Below are positions 6,768 to 21,645 of a DNA stretch of 24,044 bases, in pieces (position 1 is the first letter of the stretch; every line of letters begins with the position of its first letter). The notes below the pieces were generated by a model. It made no database searches. It was not told the origin of the DNA and saw only the letters and a program-made list of their open reading frames with translations. Made by a program: the position numbers and the translations under genes. This stretch comes from a virus. The stretch covers positions 1-24,044 of IMG/VR virus record IMGVR_UViG_3300032401_000085; one strand, written 5' to 3'.

Positions 6768-8468
6768 TTATTCTTCCCCTTGAACCTCTCTAACCATTTC
6801 CATAAACCTTGATCTCTTGTTTTGCGCGAGATTCGTAAATTCATTGTCGATTTGATAAATATTGGTGACTCCCGCCTTCTCCCCTCCAACGATTGAGATC
6901 CGGAGAGGATAGGTCTGATTGGTCAGGGACTCCATTTTTTGACGCAATATGTCTATCCCTTGGCTAACGGAATCGAATTGAGATGTATCGATCGTTATTT
7001 TTTGTGGGCCAGTTAATGATTCCATCTGTCTCTGCATCCGGTTGAGTTCCTCAATGCTCTTCTCTACCATTTCCTCTACATTTCGGGTCAATTCATCTTT
7101 CGCCTTATTACTCTTAACCCCGATATCCTCGATCCATCTCCAGTCGGATTCCCAGGTAGTCCTGGCCCTGATTCCGGAGATCTCTTTCCCAGATGGGACC
7201 ATCGTCTCTTCCCAATGCCCCCCGGGCCCCTCTTCGGCAGGCTTCATCGAATATTTTTCCTGAATCTTTTTTAGTTCCTCGGTGAGTTTCTCTTTGGCTT
7301 TCGCCATCTCTTCAGTGCTGTATCCTTTCCCAATGAGCATTTGAAACTTTTTCTGAATGGCTGCGACTTCCTCTTCCGCTCCTTTTTTGGTCTTAACTCC
7401 GAGTTGTTCCATAATCTCCATGGCCTTCGCCCGCCGCTCCTCCATCCCGGCCATGCCCTTTAAAACGTTGGCTTCATAATCATATAGATCGCTGAGCTTA
7501 TAGTTCTGCTCAATGATCTTATCATTTGCCTCTTTTATGGCCTTGAGAGCTTCCGAGCTCTGACGAAGATAAGCTGGAGTCTCACCAAGCCCTTCTAAAC
7601 CTGTATCTCCGACCGAAAACATGGACACGGGAGATTTCTTTCCAAACAACTTTTTCCACGGAGATATTTCCAAATCCTTCGTAAAAAATTCTCCATGTTT
7701 CTTGCGAAGCTTTTCTATGGCTTCAATAGCCTCGTAAGCTCCGACGACGATTTTTTGAAAGAATGCCGTCCACCAGGCAGAGGCTTTTTTGAAATGGTGT
7801 TCCAGTTCCGATCCTTTTTTGATCAGTTTTTCGTCAAGAACGATTCCAAGCCTTTCCGCCTCTTGATAAAATTCTTTCAGTCCTGCACTACCCTTATTGA
7901 GCGTCGGAATCAAATTTTGTCCTGTTTTCCCAAACAGATCGACGGCCAGTGCGACTTTATCCACACCATCGGGCATCATCTTGAATCGGTCTGCGATATT
8001 CCCAAGTATCTCATCAAAGGATTTTGTCTTCCCTGCCGCATCTTTTGTCTCAACTCCGATGCTCTTAAAGAGAAAAATGGCCTCATCCTTTCCCTTACTC
8101 ACGTCATCCATGTGGCCGGCCAGGATCTTCATCCCTCTTCCGAGAGATTCGACATCGACATCCGTCATTTTTGCCGCATAGCTCAATTTCTGAAACGCAT
8201 CGCTCGATAGACCGGAAATCTTGGCCATGCGGTCAATCTCATTGATCGATTTGGCCGTTTCCTTTGCCATATTATAAATCTGCTCTCCGGTATGAAAAGC
8301 CCTTGCTCCGAGATTGACAATGGAATCGAGTTTGATCAGGCCCAGGGATTTGTTCATTCCCTCGACATGACCGGCTGTCTGCTGGATCTTGCCCGCAATT
8401 TTATCGAGAACGATGGAGCCATCATCATTGACCTTAAAACGAATGCTAAGTATGCTTTCGTCACCCAT
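6768..8468 (-). CDS. Tail tape measure protein
   Basis: The 566-residue protein lies directly after the frameshifted chaperone gene, the fixed position of tape measure genes. The N-terminal 230 residues carry the usual tape measure pattern (S-G-L-S-S-D-A-F-Q-K-L near residue 78, then a predicted helix-rich region with F-G-K-T-G-Q-N-L near 175). The rest is a long charged helix region and coiled coil. At about 1.5 angstrom per helical residue it would set a tail of roughly 85 nm, which is short to medium for a siphovirus. No lytic transglycosylase or peptidase domain is seen. Its ATG shares one base with the stop of the chaperone extension (TAATG). Confidence 0.9.
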   Translation of the reverse strand: MGDESILSIRFKVNDDGSIVLDKIAGKIQQTAGHVEGMNKSLGLIKLDSIVNLGARAFHTGEQIYNMAKETAKSINEIDRMAKISGLSSDAFQKLSYAAKMTDVDVESLGRGMKILAGHMDDVSKGKDEAIFLFKSIGVETKDAAGKTKSFDEILGNIADRFKMMPDGVDKVALAVDLFGKTGQNLIPTLNKGSAGLKEFYQEAERLGIVLDEKLIKKGSELEHHFKKASAWWTAFFQKIVVGAYEAIEAIEKLRKKHGEFFTKDLEISPWKKLFGKKSPVSMFSVGDTGLEGLGETPAYLRQSSEALKAIKEANDKIIEQNYKLSDLYDYEANVLKGMAGMEERRAKAMEIMEQLGVKTKKGAEEEVAAIQKKFQMLIGKGYSTEEMAKAKEKLTEELKKIQEKYSMKPAEEGPGGHWEETMVPSGKEISGIRARTTWESDWRWIEDIGVKSNKAKDELTRNVEEMVEKSIEELNRMQRQMESLTGPQKITIDTSQFDSVSQGIDILRQKMESLTNQTYPLRISIVGGEKAGVTNIYQIDNEFTNLAQNKRSRFMEMVREVQGEE

Positions 8469-9131: not shown

Positions 9132-10424
9132 CTATGTAGCGTATGTGGCTACTTTGTTTTTGATATAGAGCACGACGCTCCCGTATACGTCATCTTCCAA
9201 AATTTTAAATTCCGCCTTTTCCGTCAGACGATTTCCGGTCCTTCCATAAGGATCTCGGAGAATGCAAACCTTCGGAAAGACGATCTCTACCGTATATTTG
9301 TGACCGGCTTCATATTCCGGTCCCTCGGCCTTGGCATAAAGAACGAAAGTAGAGAGATCATAAAATCTTTGGCCAACGATGAATTCCTTAAATTGGCGAT
9401 CAAGAGCGATGGTCTGCGTACGTCCATCCCTCAATGCCTGGTTTGCATAGGAATAAGTACCGCCGCCGGGAGTAAAGGCTGGAGTAATCCCATTATTTAA
9501 TGTCCAATCGATGGAATTGATATCCGCCGACATGGGATGACCACCTGTAAGAACAGTTCCATCCCATTTGCCTCCCATATTGACGAGAAAATCAGAGCAC
9601 CGCAGCGGAGGTTCAGAAACCCTGGAGGGGAAGGCTCCCCAGGCATAAACTCCAGTTTCGGCCTGGTTATAGATGATCTCATAAGTTGTAGATGTTGCGG
9701 CTCCTCCAGGAGCGGTGATCGTCACGATGGCGGGAGTTGCACCAGAAACCGCCGAGAAAACAACATCAACCCACTGGCCATTTACGGGATCGAGGGCTCG
9801 GATATAGTGACAGTTATCAAGCCTTTCTTGGGCTGTGGACCCTGATGCAGCTGCCGTAAGGGTAAGTGTAGTCGCATTCCAGGCGGCTGTTATCGAATCC
9901 TTTAGCAATGTCGTTGAGTTTTTGCCAGTTCCCTTGATTGATGCCTTCATAGAAGCAAAAGAGTCTTTCTTGAGTGAGAGAGTGAAGCTATCAATGAACA
10001 TACTCGCAAAGCGCCTCTTCTCAAGCCACTTCCCGTATCTCATCCCAAGAGTGAAGCAGGGATTTGATCGAAGGGCATCGAGGTCTCCAGTAATCGGAGT
10101 GATGGTATGCCGATAGCCCGTTGATCCTGCGGCAACGGTCGATCTCACTCCAAGACCAAAAGCTCCGACAATGGCCATGTGTTGAGCCTGCATTTTTGAA
10201 AACGAAAGGTCAGCGGTCGAGAGACCTCCAAGATCATAGAGGGCATCTGGTTCCTCTTTCCCTGTCGCCTCGTCGGAATTATCTTCGAGTCTCCTATCCC
10301 AGATAGCGATGCTTTCAAGGTCAGCGAGAATCCCTGTGTCAAGGGTCTGCTCGGTATTGAGTGCCGTCTCTTTATTATTTGCTGAGATGGCCACCAAGTC
10401 ATTTTTCACGAATTGTGATCTCAT
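9132..10424 (-). CDS. Major tail (tube) protein
   Basis: The 430-residue protein precedes the chaperone genes, the standard place of the tail tube subunit. The N-terminal 160 residues and the C-terminal 100 residues are beta-rich and low in cysteine. The middle (about 180-265) is a threonine- and alanine-rich stretch with T-A-A-A-S-G-S-T and S-G-A-T-P-A that looks like an inserted domain exposed on the tube surface. Most of the mass is consistent with a tube fold plus one added domain, larger than the 250-residue lambda gpV. Its ATG overlaps the stop of the preceding small gene as ATGA. Confidence 0.8.
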   Translation of the reverse strand: MRSQFVKNDLVAISANNKETALNTEQTLDTGILADLESIAIWDRRLEDNSDEATGKEEPDALYDLGGLSTADLSFSKMQAQHMAIVGAFGLGVRSTVAAGSTGYRHTITPITGDLDALRSNPCFTLGMRYGKWLEKRRFASMFIDSFTLSLKKDSFASMKASIKGTGKNSTTLLKDSITAAWNATTLTLTAAASGSTAQERLDNCHYIRALDPVNGQWVDVVFSAVSGATPAIVTITAPGGAATSTTYEIIYNQAETGVYAWGAFPSRVSEPPLRCSDFLVNMGGKWDGTVLTGGHPMSADINSIDWTLNNGITPAFTPGGGTYSYANQALRDGRTQTIALDRQFKEFIVGQRFYDLSTFVLYAKAEGPEYEAGHKYTVEIVFPKVCILRDPYGRTGNRLTEKAEFKILEDDVYGSVVLYIKNKVATYAT

Positions 10425-10572: not shown

Positions 10573-10612
10573 TCCTCCCTCCAGGCCAGAAGCCTTCCAG
10601 GCCGGTGGCCTT
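10573..10612 (-). repeat. GC-rich junction repeat, copy A (39-bp form)
   Basis: Read on the coding strand it is AAGGCC-A-CCGGCC followed by TGGAAGG, TTCTGGCC, TGG and the GGAGG site. It starts at the stop codon of the tail terminator gene and supplies the ribosome binding site of the next gene. It differs from copy B at three of 39 positions. Confidence 0.85.
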
Positions 10613-12038
10613 ATCCCTGTGTATAGGGATCGCCCAAGATTGTCCTGTATTCTACGGTCATCATGATTTTACTTGCCACGAAGATATCTTCTTTCTGTTC
10701 AATTTCCGTGTCGTTGCTGTCAAGGTCGGTAATTAAAGCTAATCCCCCCCAGGTCTCATCGTTAAAGATGGCCACCTCTAAATCGGCGATACATTCTCTG
10801 ATCTCGGCTGCGGTATTCGCATAGATTTCTATCTCTAATGAAAGTTTGTTTTCATAGATTCCCCACCCAGGTTCTTTTGTCTCGGTTCGATCCCGATAAA
10901 CCAAGGCGGGGATCTCCGAGGATTGAATCGGAGTTGTTCTCCAAGCGAAGACATTGCTTCCAAGGTTCATTTTGTAACCTCCCGCTGTGAGGATGGTCTT
11001 GCACCTCGAATCTATGGCATCGACAATGCGTTGACGGATTGCATTAAATGTGTCTGGGGTGACAATCGTTTTGAATCTTGTATCGATTGCGGTGAGAATA
11101 AGCTCCCGAATTGTATAGGTAGGTATGGGAGGCCCTCCAACGATGGGCCACATGGAGAAAAATGACCCAGATTGGATAGCTCTTGATAAAATTGCCTTGA
11201 TAAAAAGACGGTCTGGAAATTGACCGATCCATTTGTCGAGAGTGATAGTCTCCTTACGGGGAATGTCCGCCCAGAAGAGCGACCCGGCTTGTATTGCTCG
11301 AGATAGGGTGGGCTTAGGAAAATAATCAGGATATCGGCCCAGCCACTTATCCGCAGTGATTATTTCGACGCTGGGAGGAACCCACAAGAAGGGAGGATCT
11401 GGTTGTCTAAATTTTGATATGGCAGATTTTAAAAGAAAATCCGGATACTCTGATTGCCACTTGTCAATGGTTATGGTTTCCAGAGCACTCGCAGCATTCC
11501 AAGGGGTTCCTTTGAATAAAGACCCTGATTGAATGGCCCTGGATAGACTTACTTTGGGCAACAGTTGGTTTGGGTAATTGGGAAGCCACTTGTCAGTGGT
11601 GACAATCTCTGTGGGAGGCCAGTAAACCCAGAATAGTGAACCAGACTGTATTGCCTTTGAGAGAAATGGTTTTTGATAATGATAATCAACGTATGTTGGT
11701 TTCCACTTATCAATGGTAATTCTTTCTTCCCAGTTTGATGGGGCAACGGGGGGAACTATAACGGCATTGGTAGGTTGATTGGCTCTGGAAAGTTTAGGTT
11801 TCTGATAGTGATAATCAACATAGGTTGGCTTCCACTTATCGGTAAGCGCAGGGTCACTAAAGTTCTTTCCATAGGAAGGAGGAACCAAAAAGCAGGCCCC
11901 CGCAAGGATGGCTGTGGAAAGAACGAGGCCAACACCTCTCTTCATAGGTGGATATTTAGGCTCCCACTTATCGAGAGTTATCGTCTCTTTTCCAGTGGAG
12001 ACGACCTCAGCCTTCCCTTGATATTGCCATCGTGCCAT
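10611..12038 (-). CDS. Tail terminator-like protein with seven N-terminal DKW repeats
   Basis: The 475-residue protein has two parts. Residues 1 to about 300 carry seven degenerate repeats of 38-44 residues with the core E-T-I-T-x-D-K-W-x-P-x-Y-P-D and a tail L-S-R-A-I-Q-S-G-S-L-F-W. The D-K-W triplets begin at residues 23, 67, 110, 149, 192, 230 and 268. The C-terminal 170 residues look like a phage tail terminator/completion protein (gpU-like): a helix with I-D-S-R-C-K-T-I-L-T-A-G-G-Y, then N-V-F-A-W-R and beta strands. It precedes the tube protein gene, as gpU does. The ATG at 12038 overlaps the upstream stop as ATGA, with GGAG seven bases before. The repeats' function is unknown. Confidence 0.8.
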   Translation of the reverse strand: MARWQYQGKAEVVSTGKETITLDKWEPKYPPMKRGVGLVLSTAILAGACFLVPPSYGKNFSDPALTDKWKPTYVDYHYQKPKLSRANQPTNAVIVPPVAPSNWEERITIDKWKPTYVDYHYQKPFLSKAIQSGSLFWVYWPPTEIVTTDKWLPNYPNQLLPKVSLSRAIQSGSLFKGTPWNAASALETITIDKWQSEYPDFLLKSAISKFRQPDPPFLWVPPSVEIITADKWLGRYPDYFPKPTLSRAIQAGSLFWADIPRKETITLDKWIGQFPDRLFIKAILSRAIQSGSFFSMWPIVGGPPIPTYTIRELILTAIDTRFKTIVTPDTFNAIRQRIVDAIDSRCKTILTAGGYKMNLGSNVFAWRTTPIQSSEIPALVYRDRTETKEPGWGIYENKLSLEIEIYANTAAEIRECIADLEVAIFNDETWGGLALITDLDSNDTEIEQKEDIFVASKIMMTVEYRTILGDPYTQG

Positions 12039-12295
12039 CAAACATCTCCGAGACGAAACCGTTTCTCAATCATATCCATTTTCTTCTCAATCGGGATGCA
12101 CCGATCACAATCAGGATGCCCGCAGGTGACGGCCATGCAGTTCATACAGAACCCCCTGCGAGCGCCCGATCCCACCACGCTTAGGAAATGTCCTCCACAG
12201 TGTGGGCATTGAAGAGTCGTGCCCACCTGGACGCCGTCAACGATGAAGGCGCCATGCTCCTTGCGCTCGTATTTGGAGCTTTTGTAATCCTCCAT
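12038..12295 (-). CDS. Cysteine-rich zinc-binding protein
   Basis: The 85-residue protein has C-P-H-C-G-G-H-F near residue 30 and a C-terminal cluster G-F-C-M-N-C then C-G-H-P-D-C-D-R-C. Eight cysteines and two histidines could hold two zinc ions. Similar small CPHCGGH proteins occur in phage head-tail regions, as I recall, but their role is not known to me. The gene follows a long hairpin and lacks a strong ribosome binding site close to the ATG. Its stop overlaps the next start as ATGA. Confidence 0.75.
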   Translation of the reverse strand: MEDYKSSKYERKEHGAFIVDGVQVGTTLQCPHCGGHFLSVVGSGARRGFCMNCMAVTCGHPDCDRCIPIEKKMDMIEKRFRLGDV

Positions 12296-12308
12296 CGTTC
12301 GCTCTCTG

Positions 12309-12363
12309 GGGACACCTCCCCCGTGGAGTGGCGGCTTCGCCTACTCCACAGGGGAAGTGTCCC
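12309..12363 (-). promoter_or_regulatory. Long RNA hairpin in the intergenic region
   Basis: In the minus-strand transcript GGGACAC..GUGUCCC, then UUCCCC../GGGGGA and GUGGAGU../ACUCCAC stack into about 21 pairs, followed by a one-base bulge and GGCG/CGCC with a four-base loop. The two positions that are A-C mismatches on the plus strand become G-U pairs on the minus strand. No U tract follows, so it is not a standard terminator. It lies about 13 bases before the start of the zinc-binding gene. Confidence 0.7.
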
Positions 12364-12368
12364 TTATT

Positions 12369-12821
12369 TTACTCATTAAAAATGAGTGTGCCTTCCATCG
12401 TGAAGGTTGCATTGGCGGTCGGGTTCATCAGAACCAATCCTGCCGCTGCACCTGCGAGAGAGACGATCTCGGCTCCCGGAGCGGCAACCCATCTGAAGGT
12501 TGCCCTCTGGTTCTGACCCCACTGAAGCAGGGCAGGAGTCGTCAATGTCCCGCCGCCCGTTCCACCGTAGCCACCGGCACAAACGGACGCTACATCTCCT
12601 GCGTCCAGAGCAATAGGGGTCACGCCCGTGCCGCCTGTGACGAGGGAGGTGATCCTGTTGATTGCGAATCTCGCAGCGTTATCAGCAGGAGCGCCCGTTG
12701 AACCGACCATGAGGTCAAAAAGTCTGGCCCGGACAGCGGCGGTCGCATGAATATACATCGCCGCAAGGGTCGCACTGTTGGGGGTTGTCAGATTTGCTGG
12801 AATTGCATAGTTCTTTGGCAT
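12369..12821 (-). CDS. Putative virion structural protein, unknown
   Basis: The 150-residue protein is rich in alanine, threonine and glycine with few charges and a helical N-terminal third (S-A-T-L-A-A-M-Y-I-H-A-T-A-A-V-R). The composition suggests a stable shell or decoration component. The ribosome binding site GGAAGGAGG comes from junction repeat copy B. It lies between head-tail joining genes and the tail terminator. I know no family for it. Confidence 0.65.
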   Translation of the reverse strand: MPKNYAIPANLTTPNSATLAAMYIHATAAVRARLFDLMVGSTGAPADNAARFAINRITSLVTGGTGVTPIALDAGDVASVCAGGYGGTGGGTLTTPALLQWGQNQRATFRWVAAPGAEIVSLAGAAAGLVLMNPTANATFTMEGTLIFNE

Positions 12822-12829
12822 GTTCGTAT

Positions 12830-12868
12830 CCTCCTTCCAGGCCAGAGGCCTTCCAGGCCGGCGGCCTT
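12830..12868 (-). repeat. GC-rich junction repeat, copy B (39-bp form)
   Basis: On the coding strand it reads AAGGCCGCCGGCC, TGGAAGG, CCTCTGGCC, TGGAAGGAGG. It contains two direct copies of GGCCTGGAAGG and two small palindromes. It supplies the ribosome binding site of the next gene and begins shortly after the stop of the previous one. Confidence 0.85.
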
Positions 12869-12880
12869 TTAGTTTATTGT

Positions 12881-13471
12881 TTAGTACCCGATTATTTCTA
12901 TTTTCTCCCTAATGCGTTGCTGAATTTCAGGATGCCAACTATCGGCATAGACTCCACCTGCTATCGCCTGATAAACCGCATAAGCACCCATATCGGTAGT
13001 TGTATCTACATGAGTGTGCCATTCTGTATCGGTCGGCCAAGTTGGATAAGTGCTGGTAACTTGTCTCATACTTGTTCCGCCTGTGGTTGCAACATAGTCC
13101 CAATTAATGTTGGCATCGTCTTGAAACATTGCCAACCAATAATAGGACTGCCCCACTACTATTGGTTTCGTTCCTATTGTTCCATATCTTGCAAGAATAC
13201 TTACATCGGAAACTGAAATTTCCCCTGCATCAGAATTGGCAACAATGGTCGAGGGACAACCATTTCCTGCATCATGATCAAAAATAGCAAGACGAAAAAG
13301 TCCTGTTGTAGCAGCATCGGCACTCGCATACCACCCAACTTCGGTTACCTCATAATTAACGCCGTTAGTCCCAGGATGTTGAAACCTCTGGGTATATATA
13401 CGGTCAGCAACCGAAGGTTGAACACTTGCCCCTGGCCTTGCTGGTCTCGATGTTTGAAAACCATTACCCAT
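12881..13471 (-). CDS. Unknown beta-rich protein in the neck region
   Basis: The 196-residue protein is beta-rich and aromatic (E-V-G-W-Y-A-S-A-D, S-Y-Y-W-L-A-M-F-Q-D-D, T-E-W-H-T-H-V) with a jelly-roll-like rhythm. The pattern resembles choice-of-anchor or lectin-like domains of surface proteins, but I cannot name a family. No signal peptide is visible. The ATG has no clear ribosome binding site and directly follows a short frame ending in tandem TGA codons, so it may rely on coupled translation. It lies between two GC-rich junction repeats with nothing else, which makes it a candidate exchangeable module. Confidence 0.65.
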   Translation of the reverse strand: MGNGFQTSRPARPGASVQPSVADRIYTQRFQHPGTNGVNYEVTEVGWYASADAATTGLFRLAIFDHDAGNGCPSTIVANSDAGEISVSDVSILARYGTIGTKPIVVGQSYYWLAMFQDDANINWDYVATTGGTSMRQVTSTYPTWPTDTEWHTHVDTTTDMGAYAVYQAIAGGVYADSWHPEIQQRIREKIEIIGY

Positions 13472-13474
13472 TCA

Positions 13475-13560
13475 TCACACCATTTCAGAAGAAGTATCTG
13501 CTATGTCCATTTCGTCTTTCTGGAAATTGGCAATCACATAGGGCGGAATTGTGTTTTCAT
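13475..13560 (-). pseudogene. Short frame with a likely one-base frameshift or leader ORF
   Basis: The ATG at 13560 has a very strong GGAGGAG site from junction repeat copy C, but the frame stops after eight codons. One more A in the run of four A (13554-13557) would give an uninterrupted 28-residue frame ending at 13475. The alternative is an 8-codon leader coupled by a GTGA overlap to a GTG-started frame. It could be a decayed gene, a sequencing error in an A-run or a translated leader. Confidence 0.4.
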
Positions 13561-13591: not shown

Positions 13592-13948
13592 TCAAAAAAT
13601 TATCATTAATCCTGTTGGTTTTGCAGGTGGAATAAGATCATAGGGCTTGCTTGCTGCAATACTGTCTAAACTCTCATTTCCTGTCGTATCCACCGCAGTC
13701 AGCACAAACGTCATCGTTCCGCTTGAATTATCAGGAACGTTTACACTAAAGTTATATGGTAGGACTGGTGGATGAGAAATCAATGTGGGATTTAATTTTA
13801 ATCTTGTCCCATCAGTTCGGTAGAGATTGTAACCCGCCATATCTGTCTCTGTGTTAGCTGTCCAAGTCGCTTTGAGATTGATGATCGCCCCAAAAGCACA
13901 ACTCGCCATCAACATCATAGCCAATACCATCAATATGATTCGTTTCAT
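13592..13948 (-). CDS. Exported fibronectin type III-like protein
   Basis: The 118-residue protein begins with a clear signal peptide (MKRI, hydrophobic core, then M-A-S-C-A-F-G-A near residue 14-21), fitting either signal peptidase I or a degenerate lipobox. The rest resembles one fibronectin type III domain (W-T-A-N-T-E-T-D-M-A-G-Y-N-L-Y-R, later V-L-T-A-V-D-T-T-G-N-E-S). It ends in P-P-A-K-P-T-G-L, the usual beginning of the next Fn3 domain, and then stops just before junction repeat C. A secreted protein in a virion operon suggests a moron-like cell-surface function. GGAGG precedes the ATG. Confidence 0.75.
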   Translation of the reverse strand: MKRIILMVLAMMLMASCAFGAIINLKATWTANTETDMAGYNLYRTDGTRLKLNPTLISHPPVLPYNFSVNVPDNSSGTMTFVLTAVDTTGNESLDSIAASKPYDLIPPAKPTGLMIIF

Positions 13949-13958
13949 GTTTCCTCCC

Positions 13959-14249
13959 TCAATCTTTTGATAATCTTAAAATCATCATCCCTGTTCCGTC
14001 GGGTTCAATTGCCGTGATGTGATAGACTACAGCATTAATCGTCACTGTGGACGTATGGGTAATGGCTGAGAAATCCGCTTCCATCACCTCGACAAAAGGA
14101 TTCTTCGATTCGATCTCACCCGCAAAAAGAGTGACCGCCTCATATTCATTATGAAATATTCCCTTATAGGTGACGGCGTTCCAGAGAATATCATCCCAAT
14201 CGGCCAAAATTCTTGGGAGGTCTGAAAGTGCAATGCTTCTTATGGACAC
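13959..14249 (-). CDS. Head-tail joining protein (gpFII-like)
   Basis: The 96-residue protein starts with GTG, five bases after GAGGG. The pattern in the C-terminal half, I-T-A-I-E-P-D-G-T-G-M-M-I-L-R-L, matches the end of lambda gpFII (a beta barrel that closes the head for tail attachment), and its length fits that small family. It follows the capsid genes and an intrinsic terminator, and leads into the tail operon. The similarity is weak but the position is right. Confidence 0.65.
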   Translation of the reverse strand: MSIRSIALSDLPRILADWDDILWNAVTYKGIFHNEYEAVTLFAGEIESKNPFVEVMEADFSAITHTSTVTINAVVYHITAIEPDGTGMMILRLSKD

Positions 14250-19084: not shown

Positions 19085-19311
19085 GTCTTTTTACACCTCA
19101 TTCCCCATTGGTCTATTTCGGAGGGAATGCCAAAAATTTTGTTCTTGTTGGGAAACCGGTGAATCGGGAATTTACTCTCGCTGACGTACTTCCTAACCGT
19201 GACCACATCGCAACCGATATAATTGGCAATATCTTTCCATCCGTAAAGCCACCCGCTCACGGTCTTACTCATCGATTTTTCCTTCGGAATATTTTTCTTT
19301 GCACTCATCAT
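19081..19311 (-). CDS. Small HTH DNA-binding protein, excisionase-like
   Basis: The 76-residue protein contains a helix-turn-helix (G-W-K-D-I-A-N-Y-I-G-C-D-V-V-T-V-R-K-Y-V, about 24-43) followed by F-P-I-H-R and a short beta wing I-F-G-I-P, the pattern of excisionase/MerR-like DNA-binding domains. The start at 19311 has AGAAGGAG close upstream; an ATG at 19272 (ATGAGTAA overlap with the previous stop, AAGGA upstream) would give 63 residues. It sits next to the 11-bp repeats, so it may control the head operon. No sensor domain is visible. Confidence 0.75.
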   Translation of the reverse strand: MMSAKKNIPKEKSMSKTVSGWLYGWKDIANYIGCDVVTVRKYVSESKFPIHRFPNKNKIFGIPSEIDQWGMRCKKT

Positions 19312-20218
19312 AGAAACTCCTTCTGATTTTTTCGGGACTAAAATCCTTCATCAGATGAGGATCTAAAAATAATTTCTCATTCGTTACAAGGAAAATTCCA
19401 TATCTCGCAGCGATTTGATTCCTGAATCTCTGGTCTTTATAGGCTGCCATCTCTTTGAGACACAGGTCCGGCTGAAGATTGCTTATCTCATATTGGCCTT
19501 TCTTGATTTTGGGAGACCATTCTTCCAATCTTTTCAAATTCCCCGGAGAGATATCATCCTTCCCATCTATGCTCTGCCTTCTCGTTAAAGGCATGGCGCA
19601 ACCGCACTTCGGGCAATATTCCTCCATCTGCTCAGTGAAATCCTTGGGCGTCCTCATCCACCATTCGGATTCAACCTTCCACGATTTATCGGAATCGAAG
19701 AGGATTGCCATGGCCGCAGCGATCTCGCAGAAGAAAGCCCCTTTTGGATTGATCGAGGCGCTCCAGTTTTTTTGAAGCCAGCATTCATTGATCAGCATGA
19801 ACATTCTTCCCTTATGGGGAATCATCTCTTCTGCTGCGACGAGGACGGGGCAATGATAGATGTCCTCTCTTGTATGGTCATTCAAAAAGATATTTCCGAA
19901 AGTGCGACATATTGTCTCTCTATGTTTTTCAAGGCCCTTCGGAAAACAGGACCAGAGGCCGAGCTGCTCCCTGGGGATTTTTGACAAAGCATAATCACAG
20001 AATTTTTCAAAATCAGGATGAAGAAGGGGCTCACCCCCCATGAAGCCCGTCATTTTTGGGAATCCCACCATGGAATCCAGGGCCTCCCTGAATTGTTCGA
20101 AACTCATGAAATAGGGTTTGGGATAGTGTCCGCAGAAGCGTGTGCAGTTGGAGCAGGAATGGATACAGGCGTTGGTGATCTCGATCTGGATGGTGTCCAT
20201 ATCGAAGACCTGTCTCAT
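19265..20218 (-). CDS. Radical SAM protein with C-terminal cysteine (SPASM/twitch-like) cluster
   Basis: The 317-residue protein has the radical SAM site C18-x3-C22-x2-C25 (A-C-I-H-S-C-S-N-C), an extra Cys29, and G-G-E-P at 61-64 that holds the SAM amine. Cysteines at 146, 164, 202, 205, 207 and 253 with G160 resemble an auxiliary iron-sulfur domain of SPASM type. Such enzymes modify peptides, sugars or nucleosides through a 5'-deoxyadenosyl radical. Its start overlaps the methyltransferase stop (ATGA), so the two probably act together. The substrate is unknown. Confidence 0.85.
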   Translation of the reverse strand: MRQVFDMDTIQIEITNACIHSCSNCTRFCGHYPKPYFMSFEQFREALDSMVGFPKMTGFMGGEPLLHPDFEKFCDYALSKIPREQLGLWSCFPKGLEKHRETICRTFGNIFLNDHTREDIYHCPVLVAAEEMIPHKGRMFMLINECWLQKNWSASINPKGAFFCEIAAAMAILFDSDKSWKVESEWWMRTPKDFTEQMEEYCPKCGCAMPLTRRQSIDGKDDISPGNLKRLEEWSPKIKKGQYEISNLQPDLCLKEMAAYKDQRFRNQIAARYGIFLVTNEKLFLDPHLMKDFSPEKIRRSFYDECKEKYSEGKIDE

Positions 20219-20745
20219 AAATTAACCTCCCAAATATTTGGTAGGGGACGTTTATAAATTTCCCCAAACATCTCGGTCACAGCTCTCCCTACACCCGGAA
20301 GGACAAAGTCGTGGCCGCAGATCAACGTTTTTGTCTTGGGCAGCCACAGCTTGATGTCAACCAAAATTTCCCAGTAAAGGTGCCCGGCATCGATGAAGAC
20401 CATATCGACAGATTTATCACCGAATTGATTTGACGCTTCCTCACTCCTCATTTCAAGAAGAACGAGATTTGTTAAACGCCCCACATTATCCAAAAATACC
20501 TTCTTTCCATTTTTGTGATAAGTTTGATCGTTGGGGTCGGAGCTCCCCTTGAAATGATCGACGGCAAAAACCTTTCCCGAACATCCAGTTAATAAAGCAT
20601 GAGTGCTTTTCCCCTGGAAGGATCCCAGCTCCACGATTGAAGTCATGGTCCGGGACTTTTCATAAAGCCAGAGAGCCTCTTCATCGGAGACCGAGATTCC
20701 ATCTTTTATGTTTAGTGGGATATACTTATCTTCCCTTGGTTCCAT
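20215..20745 (-). CDS. Class I SAM-dependent methyltransferase
   Basis: The 176-residue protein has the Rossmann-type SAM site E-L-G-S-F-Q-G-K-S at 39-47 (motif I), the acidic D63 after V-F-A-V, and V-F-I-D-A-G-H at 116-122 followed by C-G-H-D-F at 143-147. The H-D pair is the pattern of Methyltransf_24/TylF-like families, many of which methylate sugars or natural products. It follows a zinc-ribbon gene and precedes a radical SAM gene in a compact operon. The ATG at 20745 has AGAGG before it; a TTG at 20751 would add two residues. The substrate cannot be told. Confidence 0.85.
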   Translation of the reverse strand: MEPREDKYIPLNIKDGISVSDEEALWLYEKSRTMTSIVELGSFQGKSTHALLTGCSGKVFAVDHFKGSSDPNDQTYHKNGKKVFLDNVGRLTNLVLLEMRSEEASNQFGDKSVDMVFIDAGHLYWEILVDIKLWLPKTKTLICGHDFVLPGVGRAVTEMFGEIYKRPLPNIWEVNL

Positions 20746-20926
20746 GGGCAACCTCTCTCGCCGTCAGACCACTCGCTTTTTTGGTCACTTCTTTGGACAT
20801 CTTTTCCCATTTGTCGGCCTGTTCTTCAGTCGGTTTGCAATCGCATAACCAGAGGCAAGACCATTTCCCCTCAATCTTCGCCGAAACCCTAATCATCGCT
20901 CTTCTACAATCTGGACAGATAATCAT
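20726..20926 (-). CDS. Small zinc-ribbon protein
   Basis: The 66-residue protein has C-P-D-C near its start and a second cysteine set (W-S-C-L-W-L-C-D-C) near 24-30, forming a likely zinc ribbon, followed by a charged helix. The ATG at 20926 overlaps the glycosyltransferase stop as ATGA and has GGAGG five bases upstream, which decides the start over an ATG at 20938. It may assist one of the surrounding enzymes, but its role is unknown. Confidence 0.7.
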   Translation of the reverse strand: MIICPDCRRAMIRVSAKIEGKWSCLWLCDCKPTEEQADKWEKMSKEVTKKASGLTAREVAHGTKGR

Positions 20927-21645
20927 GCCAGCCTCCATATTTTTAACGCCTCCTTCATTCGTATTACTTTTTCGTCAATCGGGACCATGTGGTGATGCCA
21001 GAAATACCGATCATCTTTATAATCGAATATTTTCAAAATATCGCGGATTGTGGTGAATTTCAGGCCATATTTGGCAATGTTTCTCGACATGGTATAATCA
21101 TCGATCAGGTGTTCAGGAATAATAACGGAGTTGAGTTCCTCCACTATCGGAAAAATCCTCTGAACAGCCTCTTCCAGGGTCATATCGTCGAGGGGCTTCC
21201 AGAGTTCTATGCACCAGTCCGAGGCAATGGTGAACCAGTTCCCCGAACCGATGTGACGCCCGTCCCTGTAAAAGAACCGATCGTATTTCCATCGATGGCC
21301 CGCCGGATCTTTACCATAATTGGCTACCGTATCTTTATGAAGGTGGTTCGTCATGTCGATAAAATCGGGATGAATGAGTGTGTCGGCATCCAGATAGATG
21401 TTCCAGTCATTCTCCATCTCTTGTGCAAGTTCATAAATTTGGAATTTTTCATAGACCGGGGGCCATTCCTGGAACTTCCTCTCCTTAATTTCATAAAAAT
21501 CCGCCCCGATTTTGTGGGCATAATGTTTGATCAGGGGATAGGTGATTTCTGTGATTTCTGGCGCATAATTATCGACATTCAAAACGAAGATTGTTTTTTT
21601 AATCGGCTTTTCCCACATAGTTTTAATTACCATCCCTTGATCCAT
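20923..21645 (-). CDS. Glycosyltransferase-like protein with DxD motif
   Basis: The 240-residue protein begins with a beta strand (K-K-T-I-F-V-L-N-V-D-N-Y), then Y-E-K-F-Q-I-Y-E-L and N-I-Y-L-D-A-D-T-L at 82-90, where D86-x-D88 is the metal/nucleotide-sugar site of GT-A enzymes. The later half has a W-F-T-I-A-S-D-W-C stretch and H-H-H-M near the end, as in capsule/LPS glycosyltransferases. It would use a nucleotide sugar, but the donor and acceptor cannot be told. The start at 21645 overlaps the terminase end by 19 bases and has GAGG five bases upstream. Its location between terminase and portal marks it as an added gene. Confidence 0.75.
   Translation of the reverse strand: MDQGMVIKTMWEKPIKKTIFVLNVDNYAPEITEITYPLIKHYAHKIGADFYEIKERKFQEWPPVYEKFQIYELAQEMENDWNIYLDADTLIHPDFIDMTNHLHKDTVANYGKDPAGHRWKYDRFFYRDGRHIGSGNWFTIASDWCIELWKPLDDMTLEEAVQRIFPIVEELNSVIIPEHLIDDYTMSRNIAKYGLKFTTIRDILKIFDYKDDRYFWHHHMVPIDEKVIRMKEALKIWRLA

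Follow-up and report, generated by a model that had tools for sequence, protein, structure and literature searches.

Why would the gene of a phage tail terminator begin with seven copies of a short, tryptophan-containing repeat? The question is raised by one gene in the window, the whole stretch of DNA analyzed here, which is a 24,044-base virus record from an uncultured virus of bacteria. On the minus strand, the gene order is terminase, portal, protease-capsid protein, a gpFII-like head closure protein, a short accessory island, the fused gene, a gene at the tail-tube position, one further small gene, and then tape measure. The left flank of the island is the head closure protein, which resembles gpFII of lambda (13959-14249, minus strand; PF05354, E=3.8e-11, and phrog_82). 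The right flank is the tail-tube-position gene (9132-10424, minus strand), which is assigned by its place between terminator and tape measure and by a homolog in equal order in contig L112. The tape measure protein (6768-8468, minus strand) matches phrog_8462 (E=1.8e-28) and other profiles. The interval between terminase and portal (19265-21645) harbors radical-SAM-, methyltransferase-, and glycosyltransferase-like genes, which are named by sequence reading only.

The fused gene occupies 10611-12038 on the minus strand and encodes 475 amino acids in an open frame starting at ATG 12038, which forms a TGATG overlap with the stop codon of the zinc-ribbon gene before it. If it is started at TTG 12041, the frame (10611-12041, minus strand) comprises 476 uninterrupted codons. 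The N-terminus MARWQYQGKAEVVST is conserved in the related contig L002, and an N-terminal leader, M-A-R-W-Q-Y-Q-x3-E-x-V (11988-12038, minus strand), is conserved in the alignment of array proteins. The first repeat unit begins near residue 19, and DKW is found at residues 24, 68, 111, 150, 193, 231, and 269, corresponding to spacings of 44, 43, 39, 43, 38, and 38 residues. On the minus strand the units take up 11856-11987 (unit 1, then a hydrophobic LSTAILAGACF stretch that is typical of first units), 11727-11855 (unit 2), 11610-11726 (unit 3), 11481-11609 (unit 4), 11367-11480 (unit 5), 11253-11366 (unit 6), and 11154-11252 (unit 7). The strongest degeneration is seen in units 1 and 2. At least three DKW were never reached in 20,000 shuffles of residues 1-300, and the repeat profile gave none or at most one weak match on reversed decoys and none in its final model. 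The original prediction of seven repeats of 38-44 residues was right in coordinates and counts, and a chance origin of the repeats is rejected, as the decoys gave no matches.

The array had also been predicted to be old and retained by selection, which agrees with the divergence of its units. Pairwise identity inside the fused gene is 17-57% at the amino acid and 30-59% at the DNA level, and in the more alike pairs the differences at third positions are about twice those at first and second positions. Between this array and that of the L002 protein, pS is 0.80, at which synonymous sites are saturated, and pN is 0.28. These observations identify the array as an old one that is maintained by purifying selection; a recent slippage product is rejected, as the units are too diverged. 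The AlphaFold check that had been proposed for the repeats was carried out on the fusion, and the AF2 model (mean pLDDT 31 with six sequences) leaves the repeat region without a confident fold. Since the alignment comprises six sequences, this low confidence is not proof of disorder.

By profile match and gene order, the C-terminal domain is that of a tail terminator, as predicted. Residues 334-472 (10626-11042, minus strand) match the “tail terminator” profile phrog_4204 (E=5e-9) over positions 3-144 of 147, and a second, weaker terminator match is to phrog_20428 (E=0.005). Synteny leads to the same assignment, as the gene lies between the gpFII head closure gene and the tube-position and tape measure genes, flanks that are repeated in L112 around a homolog of the domain. 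The AF2 model has a pLDDT of about 40-52 over the terminator region with the six-sequence alignment, and no convincing PDB match by sequence was obtained.

Between unit 7 and this domain lies the terminator's own leader (WPxxGxPxxPTxTIR) together with an extra copy of the first helix (11043-11153, minus strand), with the fusion joint at the 5′ edge. The stretch after unit 7 matches a 91-aa ORF of L112 (45% identity, E=5e-15), which ends in WPxxGxPxxPTxTIR and two helix copies; the DKW array thus continues in frame into the leader that belongs to the terminator itself. The duplicated first helix of the window is located at 10980-11120 (TIRELILTAIDTRFKTI and AIRQRIVDAIDSRCKTI) and resembles that of the 91-aa ORF. 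In L112 (2636-5390), the terminator gene looks split: the 91-aa ORF, in which YWQ-type repeats accompany two copies of the terminator first helix, precedes by 2.1 kb a terminator of 119 aa that lacks this helix, and ORFs of 527, 77, and 64 aa separate the two. In L113 (240-2303), a 687-aa glycosyltransferase-like ORF lies directly after a terminator that matches that of the window almost perfectly over 178 bases. The fused array-terminator gene is a single case in one contig. Its exact joint sequence was absent from the other contigs in an IMG/VR search, a search with the terminator alignment gave no relatives beyond the two already found, and a fusion query against 84,980 species genomes returned no close relative.

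The repeats are found well outside of terminators. In the nearest relatives (L002/L003, L030, L015, and L029) the DKW array is encoded as a separate protein, and in L002/L003 this is a 329-aa protein with seven units and no terminator. A Mu gp37-like gene is separate in L002/L003/L014, two genes downstream of the array (PF08873, E=6e-17 in L002/L003). A DNA pattern of one unit added three arrays (L014, L015, and L016). With the repeat profile, 59 array ORFs with 2-25 units each are found on dozens of environmental phage contigs, which are partly redundant, so that family and locus counts overstate independence. The median unit spacing across the family is 37 residues. Two unit cores fall within one profile, DKWxPxYPD and D[KR]W[FH]xxLSEPVRxKP; a pattern for the latter was found on 20 contigs, every one with 2-25 units in one ORF. 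Some arrays are fused to LamG or Gly-rich domains. The DxW array family is defined by at least two tandem W-x3-[YL]-[PS] units at a spacing of about 37 residues, with a gene termed A1 upstream on the same strand. The fused protein belongs to it with 7 units and an A1 gene (12369-12821) two genes upstream.

The fused protein and 46 other array proteins gave no convincing Pfam or PHROG match to the unit, and the same holds for NCBIfam (three tried), in line with the earlier remark that no named domain is known for the repeat. Array matches were absent from the phage and plasmid records searched, and a literature search found no mention of the repeat motifs. The repeat family and its cassette appear undescribed in the libraries searched. 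Two scans meant to type array-phage tails were uninformative, as PF12236 had no match anywhere, controls included, and PF10145 matched one record only. The original prediction is not supported where it assigned the repeats to the terminator, as relatives have separate arrays and 0 of the 46 other array proteins scanned have a terminator match. It also pointed to repeats beside tail tube genes in metagenomic phages; the arrays found follow A1 instead, and an association with the tail tube is rejected.

The DKW array belongs to an exchangeable cassette that includes A1, a zinc-ribbon protein, and DxW-tagged fiber-like proteins. In the window, all of these genes lie on the minus strand. The 85-aa zinc-ribbon-like protein (12038-12295) is recognized by its CxxC pattern, and A1 (12369-12821), the cassette hallmark, is a 150-aa β-sandwich protein with a NQRATFRWVAAP motif that is identified by its IMG/VR relatives and by AF2. 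The fiber-like protein (12881-13471) consists of 196 aa and carries a single C-terminal DxW tag (YADSWHPEIQQRIREKIEIIGY, 12884-12955). The left gene of the exchanged segment encodes a 118-aa protein with a signal-like N-terminus (13592-13948), which is common to contig L004 up to a boundary at 13959.

A1 has 171 relatives among IMG/VR contigs. The A1 family (about 105 ORFs in the loci examined) shares an invariant NxR..RWV..P motif and recurs widely on contigs of environmental phages. The window's A1 has no informative match in Pfam, PHROGs, or NCBIfam, and a search of species genomes for A1 gave only seven loci, all on MAG contigs. AF2 predicts a β-sandwich (pLDDT 93.9), for which the best PDB structure matches are jelly-roll capsids, all weak and none with E below 0.001, while the close matches in BFVD are uncharacterized predicted phage proteins.

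An array ORF is present in 32 of 87 A1 loci, in all 32 downstream of A1 and on the same strand. Among 20 records found by the repeat pattern alone, which contain near-duplicates and amount to roughly a dozen independent ones, all have at least two units per ORF and 16 have A1. Three of the four records without A1 (L122, L127, and L132) have the array at the contig edge; the fourth, G021, has an array with no A1 within about 4.7 kb upstream. As A1 often occurs without an array, arrays depend on A1 and not the reverse. In 50 of 80 distinct loci, A1 is followed by a zinc-ribbon ORF, compared to 9 zinc-ribbon ORFs among 3,321 others of this size; in many phages, as in the window, the zinc-ribbon gene stands between A1 and the array. 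C-terminal DxW..[IV]xY tags occur in 11 of 506 ORFs near A1 and in 1 of 414 elsewhere (p=0.016, a weak test), and the tagged fiber-like neighbors mostly lie immediately upstream of A1; one of them has a β-helix domain. With the repeat profile, the window's tag ranks with the top scorers among 2,467 ORF tails, where tag scores are modest (1-11 bits).

That the cassette is exchanged between phage backbones is illustrated by two comparisons. L004 is identical to the window over 1,540 bp (11736-13275), and the similarity stops at 13959, beyond which L004 continues with a Mu gp36-type head gene. L112 has the window's gpFII, terminator, tube, and tape measure genes, with a different island between gpFII and the terminator. 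One cassette is thus found in differing backbones and one backbone with differing cassettes. Beside the 1,540 identical bases, a patch of about 200 bases (13276-13482) inside the gene of the 196-aa tagged protein shows 30 differences to L004 and looks like local recombination.

The explanation that we favor, and hold to be somewhat probable, is that a DxW docking-unit array, normally a separate virion-accessory protein, is here fused to the terminator's own leader. Within a mobile structural cassette consisting of tagged fiber-like protein, A1, zinc-ribbon protein, and array protein, the array protein would be encoded last. In the window this cassette lies between the head closure gene and the tail terminator, and its array is fused in frame to the terminator leader. 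Each unit would act as an extended peptide, rich in Trp and Pro, with a shared receptor on the virion, most likely A1, so that a single DxW unit would attach one fiber-like protein and arrays would bind many receptors together. The unit is short and not confidently folded, and its single and tandem use, its varied folded partners, and the nearly constant company of A1 fit a docking peptide, for which A1 would be the likely receptor. Tail terminators form a hexameric ring. Up to six flexible seven-unit arms, with 42 units in all, could accordingly be carried at the neck. The sequences demonstrate the repeats and their family, the cassette and its exchange, the terminator assignment, and the fusion in this contig; we infer that these proteins are located in the virion, that the units dock there with A1 as receptor, and that the fused array is placed at the neck; a neck arm is possible in this one phage, as an outcome of the fusion.

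The array could instead be a host- or surface-binding adhesin that is displayed by the terminator fusion, as the LamG and Gly-rich domains fused to arrays and the β-helix domain of one tagged neighbor might suggest. This is unlikely: the units are constant whereas the folded partner domains vary, which fits an anchor better than an adhesive end, and single units occur at the extreme C-terminus, like attachment tags.

Still less probable is a specialized terminator arm that evolved with the terminator and wraps the neck or decorates the tail tube. The array is a separate gene in relatives, the other array proteins lack a terminator match, and L112 has no DKW units next to its matching terminator, although the fusion is in frame to a full terminator domain and the L112 terminator also has a W-rich leader (GYWQSTYWQDSYWQQDFWPEYG before the first helix). 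Of the repeat arm that had been proposed for the terminator, the real terminator and the in-frame fusion stand, but the repeats are not the terminator's by nature, as they form separate genes elsewhere. The same low probability is given to the array as a passenger without a role at the neck, in which case the fusion would be tolerated and perhaps cleaved, or the terminator would be made from an internal ATG at 11153. This in-frame ATG lies exactly at the joint and the fusion is rare, but no Shine-Dalgarno precedes it (TTTTTCTCC), and seven of seven units are intact.

Least credible is an assembly chimera in which two cassette-sharing phages were joined within the repeats. In its favor, the L004 contig stops within the array, L014, which has the same metagenome number, starts within another one, and the joint is found in no other contig. 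Against it, the frame is open across 476 codons, the leader immediately past the joint is the terminator's own, and the gpFII left flank and the terminator, tube, and tape measure right flank co-occur in L112, an independent contig, so that the two backbone halves in the window belong together.

With the docking-array explanation, what looked like an isolated curiosity becomes one instance of an undescribed repeat family that recurs in environmental phages, within an exchangeable structural cassette that offers a testable partner gene. In a wider form, which is offered tentatively, the DxW unit would work as a plug, used singly as a C-terminal tag or in arrays with up to 25 copies, by which exchangeable accessory proteins are attached to A1 as the conserved socket in many uncultured tailed phages; here the plug array would be wired to the terminator, gathering such proteins at the neck. 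If the units dock on virions, this would account for the exchange of surface proteins among unrelated phages in the absence of matching folds, and the unit might be used as a display tag. As the array is tied to the terminator, the fusion provides a natural experiment that would locate it on the particle.

Compared to known systems, the locus can be related to four groups. Caudoviricetes sp. cthkR962 (MW202566.1) has a 40% identical A1 relative amid structural genes, which is annotated as a hypothetical protein, and no DKW array was detected in it. Tail terminators of the gpU-like class (phrog_4204) are matched over 142 of 147 profile positions and share the place before the tail tube gene, but the fused protein has about 330 extra N-terminal residues with seven DKW units, the leader, and the extra first helix. 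A typical terminator is a single domain of about 120-180 aa, a size that is not essential, compared to 476 aa in the fused protein and 119 aa in the L112 homolog. The separate DKW-array proteins (L002, L015, L029, and L030) share the QYQ N-terminal leader, the unit, and the A1 and zinc-ribbon neighbors, and differ in having short unrelated tails instead of a terminator domain. The SEPVR-form arrays (L056, L061, L079, L088, and L131) share the profile, the spacing, and the A1 cassette with the DKW array, but they are built on the core D[KR]W[FH]xxLSEPVRxKP instead of DKWxPxYPD, reach up to 25 units, and in other members of the family are fused to Gly-rich or LamG domains.
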